A stretch of DNA of 46,120 bases. Origin: Pseudomonadota bacterium. Its GTDB lineage: Bacteria; Pseudomonadota; Gammaproteobacteria; Xanthomonadales; Rhodanobacteraceae. A model generated the notes under the pieces. That model ran no database searches. It had not been told where the DNA came from and worked only from the letters and a program-made list of their open reading frames with translations. Below are positions 4,790 through 38,130 of this stretch, piece after piece (the first letter of the stretch is position 1; the number at the start of each line of letters is the position of its first letter). The DNA lies in the NCBI GenBank assembly GCA_029561145.1, contig JAKQJM010000039.1, positions 1 through 46,120 of the forward strand. Reading direction: 5' to 3'. A program made the position numbers and the translations under genes.

Positions 4790-7786
4790 TCAATCGTGCC
4801 GGCCGACTTCGAATTCGCCGACGAGCACGGTTTCCTGACGATCCTGCAGGCGCAGGATGGTCGATTGCGCATTGGCCTTCGGCGTGCCGAATCCGCTGGT
4901 CAAGGCCAGACGCAAGGTCACGCTGCCTGAAACCAGTTGCTGGCGATTGCCGTAGTAGTTGGCTTCGACCTTGTATTTGCCCGGGATTGCCGATTTCAGC
5001 ATGAACTCCTCGGGCCCGTAACCCGATGTGAGATCCGCCGACATGCGTCCGCCCTGGCGGGTCAGGCGATTTCCGTAGTAGGCGCGCTCGCCATTCGGAT
5101 CGGTCACCCAGAGGTCCATGTCGGAGTTGTCCGCATCCCAGTTCAGGACCACGCGCAGATCGACCGGGAGATTGCGCAGCAGGCGTTCATCGAATCGCGA
5201 GACATCGATCTCGCCCCCATGCATCGCGATCAAGGCATTCATTTCGGTCAGCGCGATCAGGCCGATTTCGGCGAAGCGACCATCCCACTCGCGTCGCGCG
5301 ACCTCGTACAGCGCATCGGCGGCCTTCTGGTACTCGCCGATATCCGCATAGGCGAGTCCGAGATCACGGAAGGACTGCGGCTCGAACGGCGCCAGGTCGC
5401 GCACCTGCTCGAACAACGGCACCGCGAGTTCAGGCTTGCCCGCCTGCAGGAGCCGGTAGCCGAGGATGCGCAGGATCGCGCGGTTCTCGAGATCCATCTC
5501 GGCCAGGTTCGACAGGACGCGCAAGGCCAGCGTTGCCTGCCTGCGTTCGAACAGCAGGTCAGCCGCATCGAGGTAGTAGGCGCTGCTGTTGATCCAGTCG
5601 GCACGCTCGTCGAGATAGATCGGGTAAAGGTCGTCAGCTGACGCTTCACGCAAGCGCGCGAGATACGGCGCATCCGGCGTCCATTTCTTCAGGCCGATGC
5701 GAATTGGCGTCACCGCATCCGGGGATCCGGCCGCAACGCGCTTGTCGGCGTCGTCCGCTTTTCCGGAAGCCGATGCCATGACCGAATCCGCCGCACCGGC
5801 AGCCAATTCCATCGGCGCAGCATCCGCAGGAAGAGGCGGCGAAGCCGCTGCGGGTCGGGGCGCAGCCGTTTCCTGACGCATCGCGCGGGCTTCCGGTTCT
5901 GCATTGCCCGTCTGCATGGACAGCACGTGCGGTTCTCGCGACTTCGGAAAATCACGCGTCCACCAGGCCACCTTGTTGCTGTACTCGCGGACGATCTGCT
6001 GCAGATGGGCGTCGAGGCGCTCGCGCTCGCTGCGTGCGTTCGTCGCCCTCAACGCGTCGTAACGCGCGCGCAGCGACGCAGGGGGCTCGATGTCGTGACT
6101 GAGATAGTCGGCGACGTCATCGAGGACGATCAGCGAGGTCTCGCGCGTCAGCAGGCCGAAGGCAAGGCCAAGCCGGCATATCTCGGCGCGATTGCGCGTG
6201 GAATCCTCGTCCAGGCGATCGATCTTCATGCGCGCCCATTGCCGCGCGACCAACGGGATTTCCGCGGAGTCCGTCGACCACGCGCTGTCCTTGCCGATCG
6301 CCACGGCAACGGCACGCAGGCGTCCGTCGGGCTCGACCAGTTTCACTTCCAGCCTGGCCGGCAGCTCTCCGCGGAAGCGGCCGGTGATGCGCAGCCGACC
6401 GTGCGCGATGGCCTGTTCGTCGACCAGCAGTTCGCCATCACCATCCGCACCGAGCGCTGCCACCCCGGTGCGATCCTGCAGCAATGCATCGATGGCGACC
6501 TGGCGATCCCCGACCAGGTCGATCAGCGCTCCGCGACCCGGACCAGCACCGGCGCGCGCGATCCGGCGCAACAGGCTGCGGTTCGCCGATGCGGAGGCGA
6601 GCACCGGGTAAATGCGTGCAGCGTGGTTTCCGACCGATGCGGATTCACGACGCGCACCGTAATTGGCGAGGCCGTCGCTGAACACGAGAATTTCCTTGAT
6701 GCCCGCATCGAACTGCCAGCCATCGAGATTGCTGGCGCCGTCGTAGCGCGTCTCCTGCAATGCGCTTTTCAGGGCACTCCAATCGCCATCGGTGATCGCG
6801 AATGTCCGCGCCGGCTCAGCCACGTCGCGGACCTCGATCAACTTGACCGACCCAGTGCCCATCGCATGGAAGTACGCGTCGAGCAGTGCAAATTCGGCGG
6901 CATGGTCGCGCAGGCGTCCGGACAGCGAACTGTCCCAGACGATGCCGACCTGCCCTGGAATCCTGCGCATCGAATGGCGCACGCTGACTGGCGCATCGAA
7001 CTGCAGCCAGCTCTCGCCGCGCCAGCGCTGCACGTTCGCCGCGACCGCGCCCGATCCGGCATTGCGATCGGGAATCGTGATCTCGACCCAGCCGCGTTGA
7101 TCGAAGTCGTCGCGCTCGATCCCGCCGCGATACCAGTTGCCGCGCGCCTGCAGATCGATCACCGCACCGTCCGGCAGCGAGGCAAGCGGCGCGCCTGACG
7201 GCGATGACACCAGGACGTCCAGCGAGAACCTGGGCAACGCCTTCGCGTGGGCCAAGGCGAGCCGGTAGCGATACCGACCTTTCGATGCGTCGAGCCGCTC
7301 ACTGTAGTGGACGACGACGCGCCGCGTGCCATGCGCAGGCAACGGATAGACGCGCAGGCGGAAATTCTCGCCGGCAGTCGTTTCAAGCAGGGCCGGATCG
7401 ACGCGACGACGGATCACCTCCTCGAACACTTCCTTGCCCTTGGCCTTTTCGACAGGCACTGCTTCACGCAGTTCGCCGCCGATGTCGAGGGCGAATCCAT
7501 CGATTTCCTGCCCGGCCAGCAACGGAAACTGCAGCTCGCCTTCGAGCACCCGGTCATTCGGATTGGCGAACAGCATCTCGACGCGCGTGCGCGCCATGCC
7601 GGACATGATTTCAGTGCGCAACTGCAACGATCGCAACTCGATCGGCCCGGCGACAGGCCCTGCATCGATGCGGATCGCGGGCGGCAAGGGCGGTGCATCA
7701 ATCGCGATCGTCCGCGATTGAGCCTGCGCCGAGCCGAGGAGGAGCAGCAACGAATACAACGCGCGAGTCGCAATCGATGGGTTCAT
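4790..7786 (-). CDS. Secreted VIT / vWA-like / TPR / DUF2135 protein
   Basis: 998 aa from the ATG at 7786; another in-frame ATG at 7795 is possible, and the frame extends further upstream without support. The N-terminus (SLLLLLGSAQA) is a signal peptide. Residues ~40-170 are a VIT domain (inter-alpha-trypsin-inhibitor type; VEKAKGKEVFEEVIRRR and the HGTRRVVVHY strand are characteristic). A vWA-like domain follows with a DxSxS metal site (DSSLS from Asp285) and an ILVFSDG strand. A low-complexity Ala/Pro linker leads to TPR-like helices (about 745-830) and a C-terminal DUF2135 domain (about 870-940, DADNSDMDLWVTDPNGE). VIT and vWA modules usually mediate protein-protein contacts outside the membrane. 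It is first in the run with the DUF5706 and giant membrane protein genes. Partner and substrate are unknown. Confidence 0.9.
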   Translation of the reverse strand: MNPSIATRALYSLLLLLGSAQAQSRTIAIDAPPLPPAIRIDAGPVAGPIELRSLQLRTEIMSGMARTRVEMLFANPNDRVLEGELQFPLLAGQEIDGFALDIGGELREAVPVEKAKGKEVFEEVIRRRVDPALLETTAGENFRLRVYPLPAHGTRRVVVHYSERLDASKGRYRYRLALAHAKALPRFSLDVLVSSPSGAPLASLPDGAVIDLQARGNWYRGGIERDDFDQRGWVEITIPDRNAGSGAVAANVQRWRGESWLQFDAPVSVRHSMRRIPGQVGIVWDSSLSGRLRDHAAEFALLDAYFHAMGTGSVKLIEVRDVAEPARTFAITDGDWSALKSALQETRYDGASNLDGWQFDAGIKEILVFSDGLANYGARRESASVGNHAARIYPVLASASANRSLLRRIARAGAGPGRGALIDLVGDRQVAIDALLQDRTGVAALGADGDGELLVDEQAIAHGRLRITGRFRGELPARLEVKLVEPDGRLRAVAVAIGKDSAWSTDSAEIPLVARQWARMKIDRLDEDSTRNRAEICRLGLAFGLLTRETSLIVLDDVADYLSHDIEPPASLRARYDALRATNARSERERLDAHLQQIVREYSNKVAWWTRDFPKSREPHVLSMQTGNAEPEARAMRQETAAPRPAAASPPLPADAAPMELAAGAADSVMASASGKADDADKRVAAGSPDAVTPIRIGLKKWTPDAPYLARLREASADDLYPIYLDERADWINSSAYYLDAADLLFERRQATLALRVLSNLAEMDLENRAILRILGYRLLQAGKPELAVPLFEQVRDLAPFEPQSFRDLGLAYADIGEYQKAADALYEVARREWDGRFAEIGLIALTEMNALIAMHGGEIDVSRFDERLLRNLPVDLRVVLNWDADNSDMDLWVTDPNGERAYYGNRLTRQGGRMSADLTSGYGPEEFMLKSAIPGKYKVEANYYGNRQQLVSGSVTLRLALTSGFGTPKANAQSTILRLQDRQETVLVGEFEVGRHD

Positions 7787-7936
7787 GGAGTACATGCCGA
7801 TGAGGGAGAGAGGCAAACGTTTCCGTTGCCGGATTCTCCAACGCGGAGGTGTCGCTGCCGGGGTCGAGCACGCGCGAAACGGCCCGGATTCCGCGAGCTC
7901 GGCGGCCGGGGCAATCGTCGGGATTGGAGAGTCGAG

Positions 7937-7976
7937 AAAAAAGTGGGCGGCGGGTTCGGGGAGGAACCCGCCGCCC
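7937..7976 (-). terminator. Rho-independent terminator of the candidate small RNA
   Basis: A perfect 13-bp inverted repeat (7945-7957 with 7964-7976) has a 6-nt loop and is followed on the minus strand by AC and six T. It lies upstream of the VIT gene start and 445 bp before oxyR on the other strand, so it ends no visible protein gene. Confidence 0.8.
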
Positions 7977-8060
7977 GGGACGACGTCGTGGGGAGGGGAG
8001 GTACGACGCCGTCCTGACAGTCGGGTGACGGGCAGCACTGGCTGCGATGCATCACCCTGG
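7937..8060 (-). ncRNA. Candidate small RNA with C-rich hairpin loops
   Basis: Three stems follow each other on the minus strand. Hairpin 1 (8057-8023) pairs GGGUGA with UCACCC and CAGC with GCUG. Hairpin 2 (8013-7979) has an 11-bp stem closed over the 13-nt loop ACCUCCCCUCCCC; its single non-Watson-Crick pair is G-U on the minus strand but would be A-C on the plus strand, which favours a minus-strand RNA. Hairpin 3 (7976-7945) has a perfect 13-bp stem with loop CUCCCC and is followed by T6, an intrinsic terminator. C-rich loops are complementary to Shine-Dalgarno sequences, a design known from Xanthomonas sX13 and alphaproteobacterial CCUCC-loop RNAs. No homology to these is claimed, and the 5' end is not defined. 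Confidence 0.55.
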
Positions 8061-8420
8061 AGAACGCACCCCTGATCTGGGGATGACTTCCCGGGCCACA
8101 AGGGCTGCGACATTCCGTCGCGCGGATGAGGCCCGCAGGATCGAAGAACACCGGCGGAGACGTACCCATATCGAGATCACACTGGGTCGGGAAATGGGCC
8201 ATCTCGAAGTTTTCAGTCGAAATCGCGACCTCGAGACCGGGTTCAGGGAACTTGCCGTCGACATTCGGCCTCTGCAAACACGGATCTGCGCGACATTGGG
8301 CGGGAAATGCTCATGCGCGCCATCGCCAGGCCGTGGCGCGACTTGCAGCGTCCGAATGTCAATCGATCCGATTTGTTGTCAACATCCACACAATCGTCAT
8401 AGCCGACAGGTGGCCATTCG

Positions 8421-9329
8421 ATGAACCTCCGGGACCTGAGATATCTGGTCGCTCTTGCCGAGCACAAGCATTTTGGTCGAGCCGCCGAAGCGTCCTTTGT
8501 CAGCCAGCCCACGCTGTCGACCCAGATCATGAAGCTCGAAGGTGAACTGGGCGTTTCCCTCGTCGAGCGCACGCCGCGCAAGGTCCTGCTGACCGAAGTC
8601 GGCAGGGAAATCGTGCAGCGCGCGCGCGAGGTCCTCAACGAAGTCGAGCAGATCAAGCTGATCGCGCGACGTACGCTCGATCCTGAATCCGGAACGCTGC
8701 GACTCGGCATTTTCCCGACCCTGGGACCCTACCTGCTGCCGCATGTCGTGCCGCAGATCCGCGATCGCTTTCCTCGCCTGGAGTTGCTGCTGATCGAGGA
8801 AAAGACGGAAGTCATCCTGCGCCAGTTGCGCGAAGGTCGCCTCGATGCAGGCATCCTCGCCCTGCCCCTCAACGACCAGCAGTTGCACTGCGAATTCCTG
8901 TTCGAGGAACCGTTCGTCGTAGCCGTTCCCGAGGGCAACAGCCTCACCGAACACCGTTCGCTTGATCTCGACGATCTCGCCGAACAGAGCGTGCTGCTGC
9001 TCGAGGATGGCCACTGCCTGCGCGACCAGGCCCTCGAGGTCTGCCAACTGGCCGGTGCCAGCGAGAAATCGGGCTTTCGCGCGACCAGTCTCGAGACCTT
9101 GCGCCAGATGGTCGCGGCGAACGTCGGCATCACCTTGCTGCCGATGCTCGCGGTCAAGCCGCCCGTGCCGCAGGTCGCGCACGTGCGCCTGATCCCTTTC
9201 CGTGGCGACGCACCGAGCCGACGCATTGCGATGGTCTGGCGCAAGAGTTCGGCGGTGGGTGGCTTCCTGCGCGCGTTTTCAAGCCTGTTCCGCAACCTGC
9301 CAAAAGGCCTTTTCGAGCCCCCGAAGTAA
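8421..9329 (+). CDS. oxyR: Hydrogen-peroxide-sensing LysR-type regulator OxyR
   Basis: 302 aa. The N-terminal winged helix-turn-helix (about 1-60, MNLRDLRYLVALAEHKHFGR...SQPTLS) and the substrate-binding domain (about 90-300) are those of the LysR family. The decisive feature is LLEDGHCLRDQALEVC: the two cysteines fall at residues 199 and 208, the same numbers as in E. coli OxyR, where they form the regulatory disulfide on oxidation by H2O2. Length agrees with E. coli OxyR (305 aa). AGGTGG lies before the ATG. It stands alone; the genes to its left are on the other strand, and a candidate small RNA lies in that gap. Confidence 0.97.
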   Translation: MNLRDLRYLVALAEHKHFGRAAEASFVSQPTLSTQIMKLEGELGVSLVERTPRKVLLTEVGREIVQRAREVLNEVEQIKLIARRTLDPESGTLRLGIFPTLGPYLLPHVVPQIRDRFPRLELLLIEEKTEVILRQLREGRLDAGILALPLNDQQLHCEFLFEEPFVVAVPEGNSLTEHRSLDLDDLAEQSVLLLEDGHCLRDQALEVCQLAGASEKSGFRATSLETLRQMVAANVGITLLPMLAVKPPVPQVAHVRLIPFRGDAPSRRIAMVWRKSSAVGGFLRAFSSLFRNLPKGLFEPPK

Positions 9330-9978: not shown

Positions 9979-11166
9979 TCACGCTACCGAGGCCTTGTGC
10001 CCGGCGGATGCGAAATGCGCGCGAGCGAGCGCCGCTTCGATGTCACGGACGAGATCGGTTTCGTCCTCGATGCCTACCGACACGCGCAGCAGGCCGTCCG
10101 CGATACCGGCTCGACGACGCGCTTCTGGCGCCATCGCCGCGTGCGTCATGCCGGCCGGATGGCAAATCAGGCTTTCGACACCCCCCAGCGATTCGGCAAG
10201 GGTGAAATGGCGCAGTCCCTCGACAAAGCTCTGCGCCGCCGCCTCGCCCCCTTCAAGCTCGAAGCTGAGCATTGCGCCAAAGCCCGATTGCTGGCGCTTC
10301 GCCAACGCGTGGCCGGGATGGCTGGCCAGGCCAGGATAGTGGACGACCCGCACGGCCGGATGCGCGTCCAGCAGCCCGGCCAGCACGCCCGCGTTCGCCT
10401 CGTGCACGGCGAAACGCGCCTTCAGCGTGCGCAGGCCACGCAAGGTCAGATAGCTGTCGAAAGGCGCGCCCGACAGACCGAGGCAATTGCACCACCAAGC
10501 GAGCTTTTCGCCGAGCGCCGCCTCACGCCAGAGCACGGCACCGCCGACAACATCGGAGTGCCCGTTGATGTACTTGGTCGTCGAGTGGACGACGACATCG
10601 GCATTGAACTGAAACGGTTGCTGCAGCAACGGGGACAGAAACGTGTTGTCGACCGCAGCCAGGGCGCCGACGGCATGCGCGGACTCGACGACGTGACGGA
10701 TGTCGGTGATGCGCAACAGCGGGTTGGACGGCGTCTCGATCCAGACCAGCTTCGGTCGTTCAGCCAGCGCAGCCGCGAGCGCCTGCGGGTCGTGGAAATC
10801 GACAAATACCACGCGATACTGGCCGCGGCCCGCCTGTGCATTGAACAGGCGCCATGTCCCGCCGTAGCAGTCGTGCGGCGCAACCAGCAGGTCGCCAGGG
10901 TCGAGCAAGGCGGCGACCAGCGTGACCGCTGCCATGCCGGTTGCCGTGATCGCGCAGCCTTGTGCACCTTCGAGTTCGGCCAGTGCCGCGGCAAGCGTGT
11001 CGCGCGTGGGATTTCCGGAGCGCGTGTAGTCGTATTGGCGCTTCGTCCCAAAGCCGGCAAAACTGAAATTGCTCGACAGGTAGAGGGGCGGCATCACCGC
11101 ACCGAAGGTCGGGTCGCCATCGACGCCGGATCGCACGGCCGTGGTGGCAGGAAGCGGCGCGCTCAT
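9979..11166 (-). CDS. metB: Cystathionine gamma-synthase / O-succinylhomoserine (thiol)-lyase
   Basis: 395 aa. A cytosolic PLP enzyme of the Cys/Met metabolism family that joins an O-acylhomoserine to cysteine, giving cystathionine for methionine synthesis. The PLP lysine lies in HSTTKYINGHSD at Lys198, the same number as in E. coli MetB. YDYTRSGNPTRD, ETPSNPLLRI and AVDNTFLSP are family signatures. Its ATG overlaps the stop of metX by 4 bp, so the two are translationally coupled and under the same riboswitch. Pairing with MetX supports a synthase role rather than a lyase (MetC), though sequence alone does not strictly separate these. Confidence 0.93.
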   Translation of the reverse strand: MSAPLPATTAVRSGVDGDPTFGAVMPPLYLSSNFSFAGFGTKRQYDYTRSGNPTRDTLAAALAELEGAQGCAITATGMAAVTLVAALLDPGDLLVAPHDCYGGTWRLFNAQAGRGQYRVVFVDFHDPQALAAALAERPKLVWIETPSNPLLRITDIRHVVESAHAVGALAAVDNTFLSPLLQQPFQFNADVVVHSTTKYINGHSDVVGGAVLWREAALGEKLAWWCNCLGLSGAPFDSYLTLRGLRTLKARFAVHEANAGVLAGLLDAHPAVRVVHYPGLASHPGHALAKRQQSGFGAMLSFELEGGEAAAQSFVEGLRHFTLAESLGGVESLICHPAGMTHAAMAPEARRRAGIADGLLRVSVGIEDETDLVRDIEAALARAHFASAGHKASVA

Positions 11167-12152
11167 GCCACAGCCTCCGTGATCAGGGCGTCATGCAGGA
11201 CGCGGGCGATCGCGCCTTCCTCCTTGAGGAACGCGTCGTGTCCGAACGGCGATGAGATGTTCCTCAGCCGGGCGTGGCTGCCGATGCGGCGCACGAAATC
11301 CCCCGCCAGCGAAACCGGCACGAGCAGGTCCTCGGCTATCGCGACGATGGTCGTCGGCGCGAGGATCGATCCGGGATCGCCCTGATGATGATCGAGCGAC
11401 CGAGACAGGCAAAGGAAGCTCGACGCGCTGAAGCGCGTCAGGAAACGCTCGCCATGCGCGGCGAGCCAGCTGAGCACGCCACTCGACGGATCGGATTCGC
11501 CAAACTGGCTTTCGAGCCCGATCGGCGTGCGATAGCCGAGAACGGCAAGCTGGCGCGCGCGCGCCAGGGCGCTGCGGCGATCCTGTGCGGTCCGCGCCGA
11601 TTCGATGCCAGCGCGCTGCAAGGTGCGCAAGGCCAGCGCCCAAGGACTTGCCCGATGCGCCGCACCGATCACGATCAGGCGCGCGAGTCGGCTGCCGAGG
11701 AGGCTGGCCAGATGCTGGCCGACGCAGCCACCATAGGATGAGCCGACCACGGCATCGACCTGGGCCAGGCCCAGGTGGTTGAGCAACAGCAGGATGGCGT
11801 TGGCCTGATCGAGGCTGTCGATCGGCACGAACTCGTCGTCGTTGCGCGGACCCGTGGAGGCGTCCGAGCCACCGATCCAGTCGACCGAGATCAGGCGATG
11901 ACGCCGCGGATCAAGGGCCAGCCCCGGCCCACACTGCGCGGCCCACCAGCCGGCAAGGTCGCGCCCGGCGGAAATTCCACCGAGAACGACGACCGCAGGC
12001 GCGTGCGGCTCGCCCCAGCACTGCCAGGCGAGCACACCGCCATCGAGTTGCAGCCCGCAAGCCAGATTGAATCCATGCAGACGAAGTACGCCGCGCTTGA
12101 ACGCAGGAGAGACGTCCGCAGACGCCGGATTGCTGATCCTGATTGCCGTCAT
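11163..12152 (-). CDS. metX: MetX-type homoserine O-acyltransferase (probably O-succinyltransferase)
   Basis: 329 aa from the ATG at 12152, preceded by GAAGAGGG; an upstream GTG at 12176 is in frame but poorly placed. It is an alpha/beta-hydrolase: the nucleophile elbow GSSYGG places the catalytic serine at 139, an acid loop AIAEDLLVP and a His in FGHDAF follow near the C-terminus. It activates homoserine for metB, directly downstream. In Lysobacterales this MetX branch is reported to use succinyl-CoA (MetXS); I cannot determine acyl specificity from residues here. A SAM-I riboswitch occupies its leader and met-box-like repeats its promoter. Confidence 0.92.
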   Translation of the reverse strand: MTAIRISNPASADVSPAFKRGVLRLHGFNLACGLQLDGGVLAWQCWGEPHAPAVVVLGGISAGRDLAGWWAAQCGPGLALDPRRHRLISVDWIGGSDASTGPRNDDEFVPIDSLDQANAILLLLNHLGLAQVDAVVGSSYGGCVGQHLASLLGSRLARLIVIGAAHRASPWALALRTLQRAGIESARTAQDRRSALARARQLAVLGYRTPIGLESQFGESDPSSGVLSWLAAHGERFLTRFSASSFLCLSRSLDHHQGDPGSILAPTTIVAIAEDLLVPVSLAGDFVRRIGSHARLRNISSPFGHDAFLKEEGAIARVLHDALITEAVA

Positions 12153-12208
12153 GACACCCTCTTCCGTTGCGAACACGGAGGAGCGGCATTCCGCCGGACG
12201 GAACGCAG

Positions 12209-12309
12209 CTCATCTCCCGGGACGATTCCCGCTGGAGTTGGCACCGTCAGCGACATCGCTGTGGTTGCCTCGGCATCAAAGGGCCAGTCCCTCCGCCGAT
12301 CTCGATGAA
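12209..12309 (-). promoter_or_regulatory. SAM-I (S-box) riboswitch controlling metX-metB
   Basis: Reading the minus strand from 12309: P1 left arm UUCAUC pairs with GAUGAG (12214-12209). P2 is UCGGC/GCCGA and encloses the S-box core GGAGGGACUGGCCC, with GGCAACC just after. P3 is CAGCGA/UCGCUG, followed by the conserved junction GGUGCCAACUCC. P4 is CGGGA/UCCCG. All hallmark blocks of the family occur in order and at usual spacing. Between aptamer and start codon, CUCCUCCG could pair with the Shine-Dalgarno region GAAGAGGG, and there is no clear terminator, so translational control is likely (inference). High SAM should switch metX-metB off. Confidence 0.92.
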
Positions 12310-12319
12310 CGGCGTGGAC

Positions 12320-38013: not shown

Positions 38014-38028
38014 TCGCGCCCTCTCGCT

Positions 38029-38110
38029 GCCGAGGGGCGCTGCAGGTCAGTTCCATCATGGAACCGGACACAGGCTCGGCATGCGTTTCCCTTCCAACCG
38101 CGCCCGCCCC
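38029..38110 (+). promoter_or_regulatory. SAH riboswitch of ahcY
   Basis: The P1 arms GCCGAG (38029-38034) and CTCGGC (38075-38080) flank the conserved GGGGCGCTGC and CAGG blocks of the S-adenosylhomocysteine riboswitch. An internal hairpin GTTCCA-TCA-TGGAAC lies between. The second helix forms between GGGCGC (38035-38040) and GCGCCC (38100-38105), as in the family's pseudoknotted fold. It lies directly before ahcY, the usual target; SAH binding should raise ahcY expression. The ribosome site GGAG follows before the ATG. Confidence 0.92.
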
Positions 38111-38130
38111 AATGCAACGGAGCGAACCGC

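Follow-up and report, generated by a model that had tools for sequence, protein, structure and literature searches.

The DNA analysed here (the window) is a contig of 46,120 nucleotides from a bacterium of the family Rhodanobacteraceae. We infer that this genome (G000) and its nine genus relatives belong to Dokdonella. The plus strand carries oxyR at 8421-9329, which encodes a LysR-type regulator scoring 320.7 bits against the NCBIfam OxyR model PRK11151, just below the cut-off of 329. On the minus strand, at 4790-7786, is a gene for a VIT-domain/TPR/DUF2135 protein, recognized by its Pfam domains, with the start at 7786 chosen by eye. Between these genes, upstream of the VIT gene, lies a predicted small RNA of about 132 nt at 7937-8068 on the minus strand, whose 5' end is placed from a promoter motif only. 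That a small RNA beside oxyR is real appears to us highly probable. Two riboswitches also occur in the window: a SAM riboswitch (RF00162, 84.9 bits) at 12207-12311 on the minus strand, with two ORFs of that strand downstream of it (11163-12176 and 9979-11166) that resemble methionine-biosynthesis genes when their sequences are read, and a SAH riboswitch (RF01057, 45.3 bits) at 38026-38112 on the plus strand.

The minus strand of 7930-8090 folds with -82.7 kcal/mol (z -6.8), and none of 200 shuffled sequences was as stable. The plus strand of this interval also folds well, though less so (z -4.0, 0/200 shuffles as stable); the predicted transcript at 7937-8068 has a z of -7.8. A preliminary description made from the sequence had proposed three consecutive minus-strand hairpins, and these are present at 8057-8023, 8014-7978 and 7976-7945. 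The 5' hairpin (8023-8057) has no C-rich loop. Hairpin I (7978-8014) has 12 pairs, compensatory changes at three of them, and the loop ACCUCCCCUCCCC at 8002-7990. Hairpin II (7945-7976), found by both folding and the terminator scan, is the terminator stem; it has 13 pairs, one of them compensatory, and the loop CUCCCC at 7963-7958, and is followed at 7937-7942 by the T6 of an intrinsic terminator. Both loops, the T6 and the middle stem's single imperfect pair, a G-U on the minus strand, are just as that description gave them.

The terminator of the RNA was the sole terminator-like site in 7700-8500; the scan alone is weak evidence because shuffled sequences gave 0.7 sites on average. No sigma-70-type promoter was found by a scan of 7700-8500. 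It had also been stated that no protein frame explains the terminator. This was too simple, since the minus-strand ORF 4790-8113 is open across the RNA, but coding is indeed a poor explanation: the VIT protein resembles its relatives only from 47 residues inside the start at 7786 onward, and single-base insertions and deletions occur within the RNA in relatives.

Searches first by DNA similarity and then with a covariance model, R1, made from nine RNAs (eight of them from Dokdonella), located the RNA in 10/10 Dokdonella genomes, as one strong copy each and with oxyR adjacent in each. The stems and C-rich loops, whose loss from close relatives had been named as the outcome that would speak against the RNA, are kept in all ten, and the covariance-model search that had been advised recovered stems with compensatory changes. 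The predicted length ranges from 109 to 132 nt with three predicted hairpins in each genome; the 5' hairpin of the other nine members differs partly in sequence, and a proper T-run is missing from three of the ten (G001, G005 and G008). Covariation was assessed in a nine-sequence Dokdonella-type alignment without G008 and G009, whose second stem was misplaced by MAFFT and both of which are found by R1. In this alignment 96.7% of the cells are paired, and 10 cells show changes on both sides of a pair compared with 3.6 in shuffles, none of 500 being as high. Neither the count of pairs showing such changes (4; 63/500 shuffles) nor that of pair types (377/500) is out of the ordinary. The loops remain C-rich while the stems covary. 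Outside the genus, R1 gave strong matches among 197 family genomes in three genomes of one other genus (G034, G207 and G126), and all 13 RNAs adjoin oxyR and/or ahpC. The DNA search of 60 relatives gave one match under E 0.001 outside the genus (G034, 1.2e-4), and the others among the matches listed were mostly short and chance-like.

The gene order is oxyR (divergent), ahpC, RNA, ahpD in G002, G003, G004, G006, G007 and G034; in G207, ahpC, RNA and ahpD could be followed as far as the contig end. The product of ahpC in these relatives is an AhpC-TSA peroxiredoxin with 155.5 bits to TIGR03137 AhpC, below the cut-off of 272, and that of ahpD is an AhpD-family protein with 191.5 bits against a cut-off of 191.95. 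The VIT gene comes after ahpD in G002 and G006. The placement between oxyR and the VIT operon given in the preliminary description is correct as to the divergence from oxyR, but the usual site in ahpC-bearing relatives is between ahpC and ahpD. Its suggestion of a link to oxidative stress gains from this synteny, which ties the RNA to peroxide-defence genes.

In the window itself, ahpC is reduced to a 72-nt remnant of its 5' part at 8198-8269 on the minus strand (its 72 nt match the ahpC region of G006 with 72% identity, E 2.6e-6), ahpD is missing, the RNA is kept and the VIT gene follows it. The remnant aligned on the same diagonal with five of the six ahpC loci compared at E up to 0.001, four of these matches being weaker than that of G006; the G034 ahpC locus gave no match. 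Among 12 genomes checked for ahpC (the ten genus members, G034 and G126, with G207 left out), six (G000, G001, G005, G008, G009 and G126) have no close ahpC, their best matches reaching 34-38% identity, and all six retain the RNA. No other single observation argues as strongly for a function of the RNA's own as its intact state beside the decayed ahpC. Judged from these sequences, the RNA seems to have arisen inside the peroxidase operon and to have outlived the loss of the peroxidase genes.

The sigma-32 consensus consists of CTTGAA, a spacer of 13-14 nt and CCCCATNT. Upstream of the RNA, at 8075-8102 on the minus strand, is an RpoH (sigma-32)-type motif, CTTGTG-N14-CCCCAGAT. It is the only match to CTTGNN-N13/14-CCCCANNT on both strands of the 46-kb window, where 0.10 matches are expected and 8 of 100 shuffles contain at least one. 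The pattern [C/G]TTG-N2-N14-CCC[C/T]A stands upstream of the RNA at constant spacing in 10/10 genus loci (for L006 the script gave a spacing of 15, and 14 also fits its sequence), and the motif columns have a mean top-base frequency of 0.88 versus 0.58 for their surroundings. The -35 element varies: the window has CTTGTG and not CTTGAA, G003 and G004 have GTTGAA, and G007 has CCCTACAT. The whole genome of the window contains 11 exact matches compared with 3 for a reversed-pattern control; one is directly before dnaK, with the same spacing, one before the RNA and one before a glutamate-cysteine ligase gene. The last (L221, G000:C77:17460-17487) lies 29 nt before the ligase frame, which was recognized by TIGR01436 with 79.8 bits over an 80-residue piece. 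The strict motif precedes dnaK in 9/9 genus genomes where dnaK was found, but groES in only 2/10, or 6/10 when CTTGAA-N14 and one deviation in CCCCA are allowed; it occurs in 262 of 20,000 random 250-nt segments. A stricter RpoH pattern gave three matches in the ten genomes, two at the RNA and one before a small membrane-protein-like gene. Outside the genus, the RNA loci of G034 and G126 yielded no RpoH-type motif upstream, and that of G207 only a longer-spaced variant. Because the motif keeps a constant spacing in the genus, is better conserved than its surroundings and recurs at dnaK, the RNA is likely to be served by a heat-shock-sigma promoter.

A related RNA, with two hairpins, sits at the corresponding site in further oxyR loci. 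We surveyed the best 80 of 208 named oxyR loci with a structural descriptor, a hairpin with a C-rich loop and then a terminator. It matched 23 of these 80 loci, within 1.1 kb of oxyR and on the divergent strand (in L108 the match paired hairpin II with a further terminator), and matched once over the remainder of the 968,159 bases, both strands counted. Together with ten loci chosen by eye, five of which are also R1 matches, the RNA is found in 33 of the best 80 of 208 loci, with Luteibacter, Dyella, Rhodanobacter, Pinirhizobacter, Dokdonella, two Lysobacter and MAGs as hosts. Thirteen of the 33 have no ahpC. R1 applied to the same best 80 of 208 loci at E up to 1 gave 31 matches, 21 of them at the syntenic place and strand; the other 10 lie elsewhere, two being the opposite strand of strong ones. 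This wider family was missed by R1 in the 197 family genomes and was revealed by the named oxyR loci.

A second model, R2, was built from 21 of the 33 RNAs, leaving out seven of Dokdonella type and five odd ones. The 21 aligned non-Dokdonella RNAs show 43 both-side changes versus 13.7 in shuffles (0/500 as high), and 2-9 when the pairing partners are slid; the pair types are not unusual (92/500 shuffles). Their hairpin II has no C-rich loop and is a plain terminator. Of 233 family genomes, 81 gave an R2 match, one in each case, and the best 30 of the 81 all adjoin oxyR, 15 in the order ahpC-RNA-ahpD and 15 without ahpC. The presence in the family is partly circular because the species behind R2 belong to the family that was searched; this does not apply to the occurrence as a single copy in each genome. 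Across 369 genomes of the class, R2 gave six weak matches, none near oxyR. R2 does not detect the Dokdonella form (0/10 genus genomes), and the two forms are therefore linked by their place, their architecture and weak R1 scores. In another family of the class, a look-alike (L215, G376:C8:68143-68214; 35.9 bits to R2) has a C-rich-loop hairpin followed by a terminator; by eye it lies apparently just past the end of an unrelated gene and is possibly another 3'-UTR RNA of similar style.

Ten RNA-only loci of Rhodanobacter and Dyella have, between oxyR and the RNA, the sequence ATAG-N7-CTAT, which we take to be the OxyR box, together with a promoter element, AACAATCAATTG. This element was derived from the same loci, and in the best 80 of 208 it is present with up to two mismatches in 10/13 RNA-only loci (nine Rhodanobacter and one Dyella), 9/20 with ahpC and RNA (18/20 with three mismatches), 4/7 with ahpC only and 2/40 with neither. 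Of the RNA-only loci without it, L106 and L108 carry an RpoH-type motif, like the window, and L110 has the element at three mismatches. The ATAG-N7-CTAT box occurs in 11/13 RNA-only named loci and does not discriminate, because 24/40 loci with neither RNA nor ahpC have it too, as oxyR autoregulation would give. The window has no such box in the 130 nt before oxyR; a decayed counterpart of the ahpC-side element is present at 8369-8380 on the minus strand, as a best match with four mismatches. On a tree of OxyR with 86 rows (17 RNA-only, 22 with ahpC and RNA, 7 ahpC-only and 40 with neither), the RNA-only rows are clustered and their state requires six changes, at least three of them forced on well-supported branches; the tree is poorly resolved (21/83 inner branches starred) and does not separate gain from loss. 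The RNA is not indispensable, since 40 of the 86 rows have neither ahpC nor RNA. The labels of L119, L140 and L162 are unsure because contig ends cut these loci short, and L140 and L162 are among the rows with neither. One locus with neither, L167, keeps the divergent element (one mismatch), a T-run terminator and a poor C-rich hairpin, possibly a decaying copy.

OxyS of E. coli is encoded divergently from oxyR. The RNA of the window shares this orientation, and in Rhodanobacter it lies directly behind a promoter element near the ATAG-N7-CTAT box; as read from the sequences, the RNA-only loci with the divergent promoter element have an OxyS-like layout. However, the structure is unlike that of OxyS and the Dokdonella promoter motif is of RpoH type. 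No Rfam OxyS match was found in the window at gathering or at E up to 10, and OxyS membership is rejected.

The loops of the CcsR RNAs are C-rich. Oxidative stress is reported to induce CcsR1-4 of Rhodobacter sphaeroides, which derive from the ccaF1 3' UTR behind an RpoHI/RpoHII promoter (PMC8625941, PMC10253847, PMC8307010); ar14 RNAs bear CCUCCUCCC anti-Shine-Dalgarno loops (PMC10746234), and SmelA075/099 have similar loops (PMC3927594). sX13 is described as always downstream of polA and constitutive, with C-rich loops through which it represses mRNAs that carry G-rich motifs close to their translation starts, independently of Hfq (PMC3771888). The window RNA resembles CcsR1-4 in 3'-UTR logic and in the RpoH-type promoter, present here as the sequence motif at 8102-8075 that dnaK supports. 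It resembles ar14/cuckoo in the anti-Shine-Dalgarno loops, and sX13, a small RNA of Xanthomonadales, in stable stems and apical C-rich loops. In contrast to CcsR, its host gene is ahpC and not a DUF1127 gene, it is present in one copy, and its identified neighbours are oxyR, ahpC, ahpD and VIT; CcsR and ar14 are moreover alphaproteobacterial, and the window RNA has no over-cut-off match. It differs from sX13 in its place at oxyR/ahpC, its two C-rich loops and its RpoH-type motif. Tandem pairs of neighbouring sX13-like matches were seen in some genomes of the family, at G087:C69:11431-11555 and 11830-11956, G014:C1:3178482 and 3178748, G072:C46:127355 and 127474, and G065:C4:56413 and 56643; G087:C69:11830-11956 alone among the eight exceeds the cut-off. 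Among the titles listed in searches of open-licence papers, none dealt with a small RNA encoded at ahpC or oxyR in these bacteria.

Could the RNA be a relocated member of one of these families, sX13 or the alphaproteobacterial ar7 and ar14 "cuckoo" RNAs? The loops are of the same type, and Rfam gives sub-threshold matches on the correct strand, with 36.8 bits for ar7 (RF02342), 35.8 for ar14 (RF02344) and 25.6 for sX13 (RF02232). Every score is below gathering (60, 58.8 and 50 bits, respectively), so that the conserved minus-strand RNA reaches no Rfam cut-off. The identical CCUCCUCCC in three hairpins that marks ar14 is also lacking, as the RNA has the two C-rich loops ACCUCCCCUCCCC and CUCCCC, and it lies beside oxyR rather than polA. 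The same genome has a separate sX13 of 51 bits (L059) beside its DNA_pol_A gene, and in the loci of 11 relatives Rfam at cut-off found no family except two tRNAs, neither on the RNA. Strict membership in sX13, ar7 or ar14 is refuted, and a relocated member is very improbable. A strong double terminator of GC-rich DNA that regulates nothing, or a VIT-gene leader, is only slightly less so. The VIT frame is open across the RNA and one of the 24 descriptor matches is away from oxyR, as such a reading would have it; but the loops persist as C-rich while the stems covary, the promoter motif is conserved, and in 7/10 genus members there is no VIT match within 13.8-16 kb around the RNA.

A more serious rival, though still unlikely in our judgement, is a cis-acting element of ahpC-ahpD, an intercistronic terminator or stabilizer that sets the AhpC:AhpD ratio and in which the C-rich loops are incidental. 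It agrees with the position between ahpC and ahpD in the seven genomes named above (the six with the full order and G207) and in 15/30 of the best 30 R2 loci, with the terminator of the RNA, and with the plain terminator form of hairpin II in the 21 aligned non-Dokdonella RNAs. Against it, the RNA is kept without adjacent ahpC/ahpD in the window, G001, G005, G008, G009 and G126, and 15/30 of the best 30 R2 loci have no ahpC. It also has its own promoter motif in Dokdonella, and hairpin I, which is unnecessary for termination, has retained its C-rich loop.

We consider it probable that the locus encodes a stress-induced, trans-acting anti-Shine-Dalgarno small RNA, about 110-130 nt long, that originated in the OxyR-linked ahpC operon. 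This reading as a stress-induced translational repressor combines the loops of sX13/ar14 type, the stress-promoter and 3'-UTR logic of CcsR, and the place of OxyS. We regard anti-Shine-Dalgarno repression in trans as its most likely mode of action. The Dokdonella RNA would be transcribed from its own sigma-32-type promoter and stop at its own terminator; where ahpC is present, it is probably also part of an ahpC-ahpD transcript from the oxyR-divergent promoter. Its two rigid hairpins would expose the C-rich loops; by pairing with G-rich ribosome-binding sites, these may reduce the translation of several mRNAs, as has been shown for sX13.

Beyond this, we tentatively suggest, as a possibility somewhat short of probable, that Rhodanobacteraceae have an independent counterpart of OxyS. 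An intercistronic or 3'-UTR RNA of the oxyR-divergent ahpC-ahpD operon would have been freed several times by deletion of ahpC and so come to lie directly behind the OxyR-box promoter, as in Rhodanobacter and Dyella marensis. In Dokdonella the RNA would have acquired a sigma-32 promoter along with another anti-Shine-Dalgarno loop, its control moving from the peroxide to the heat-shock regulon. If this is true, bacteria distant from E. coli own an oxyR-encoded small RNA that acts by anti-Shine-Dalgarno loops. The family would then present a natural series, with the RNA within ahpC-ahpD, alone under the former ahpC promoter, equipped with a heat-shock promoter, or lost, and this series would make the birth of a free-standing small RNA from an mRNA directly testable in cultured species.
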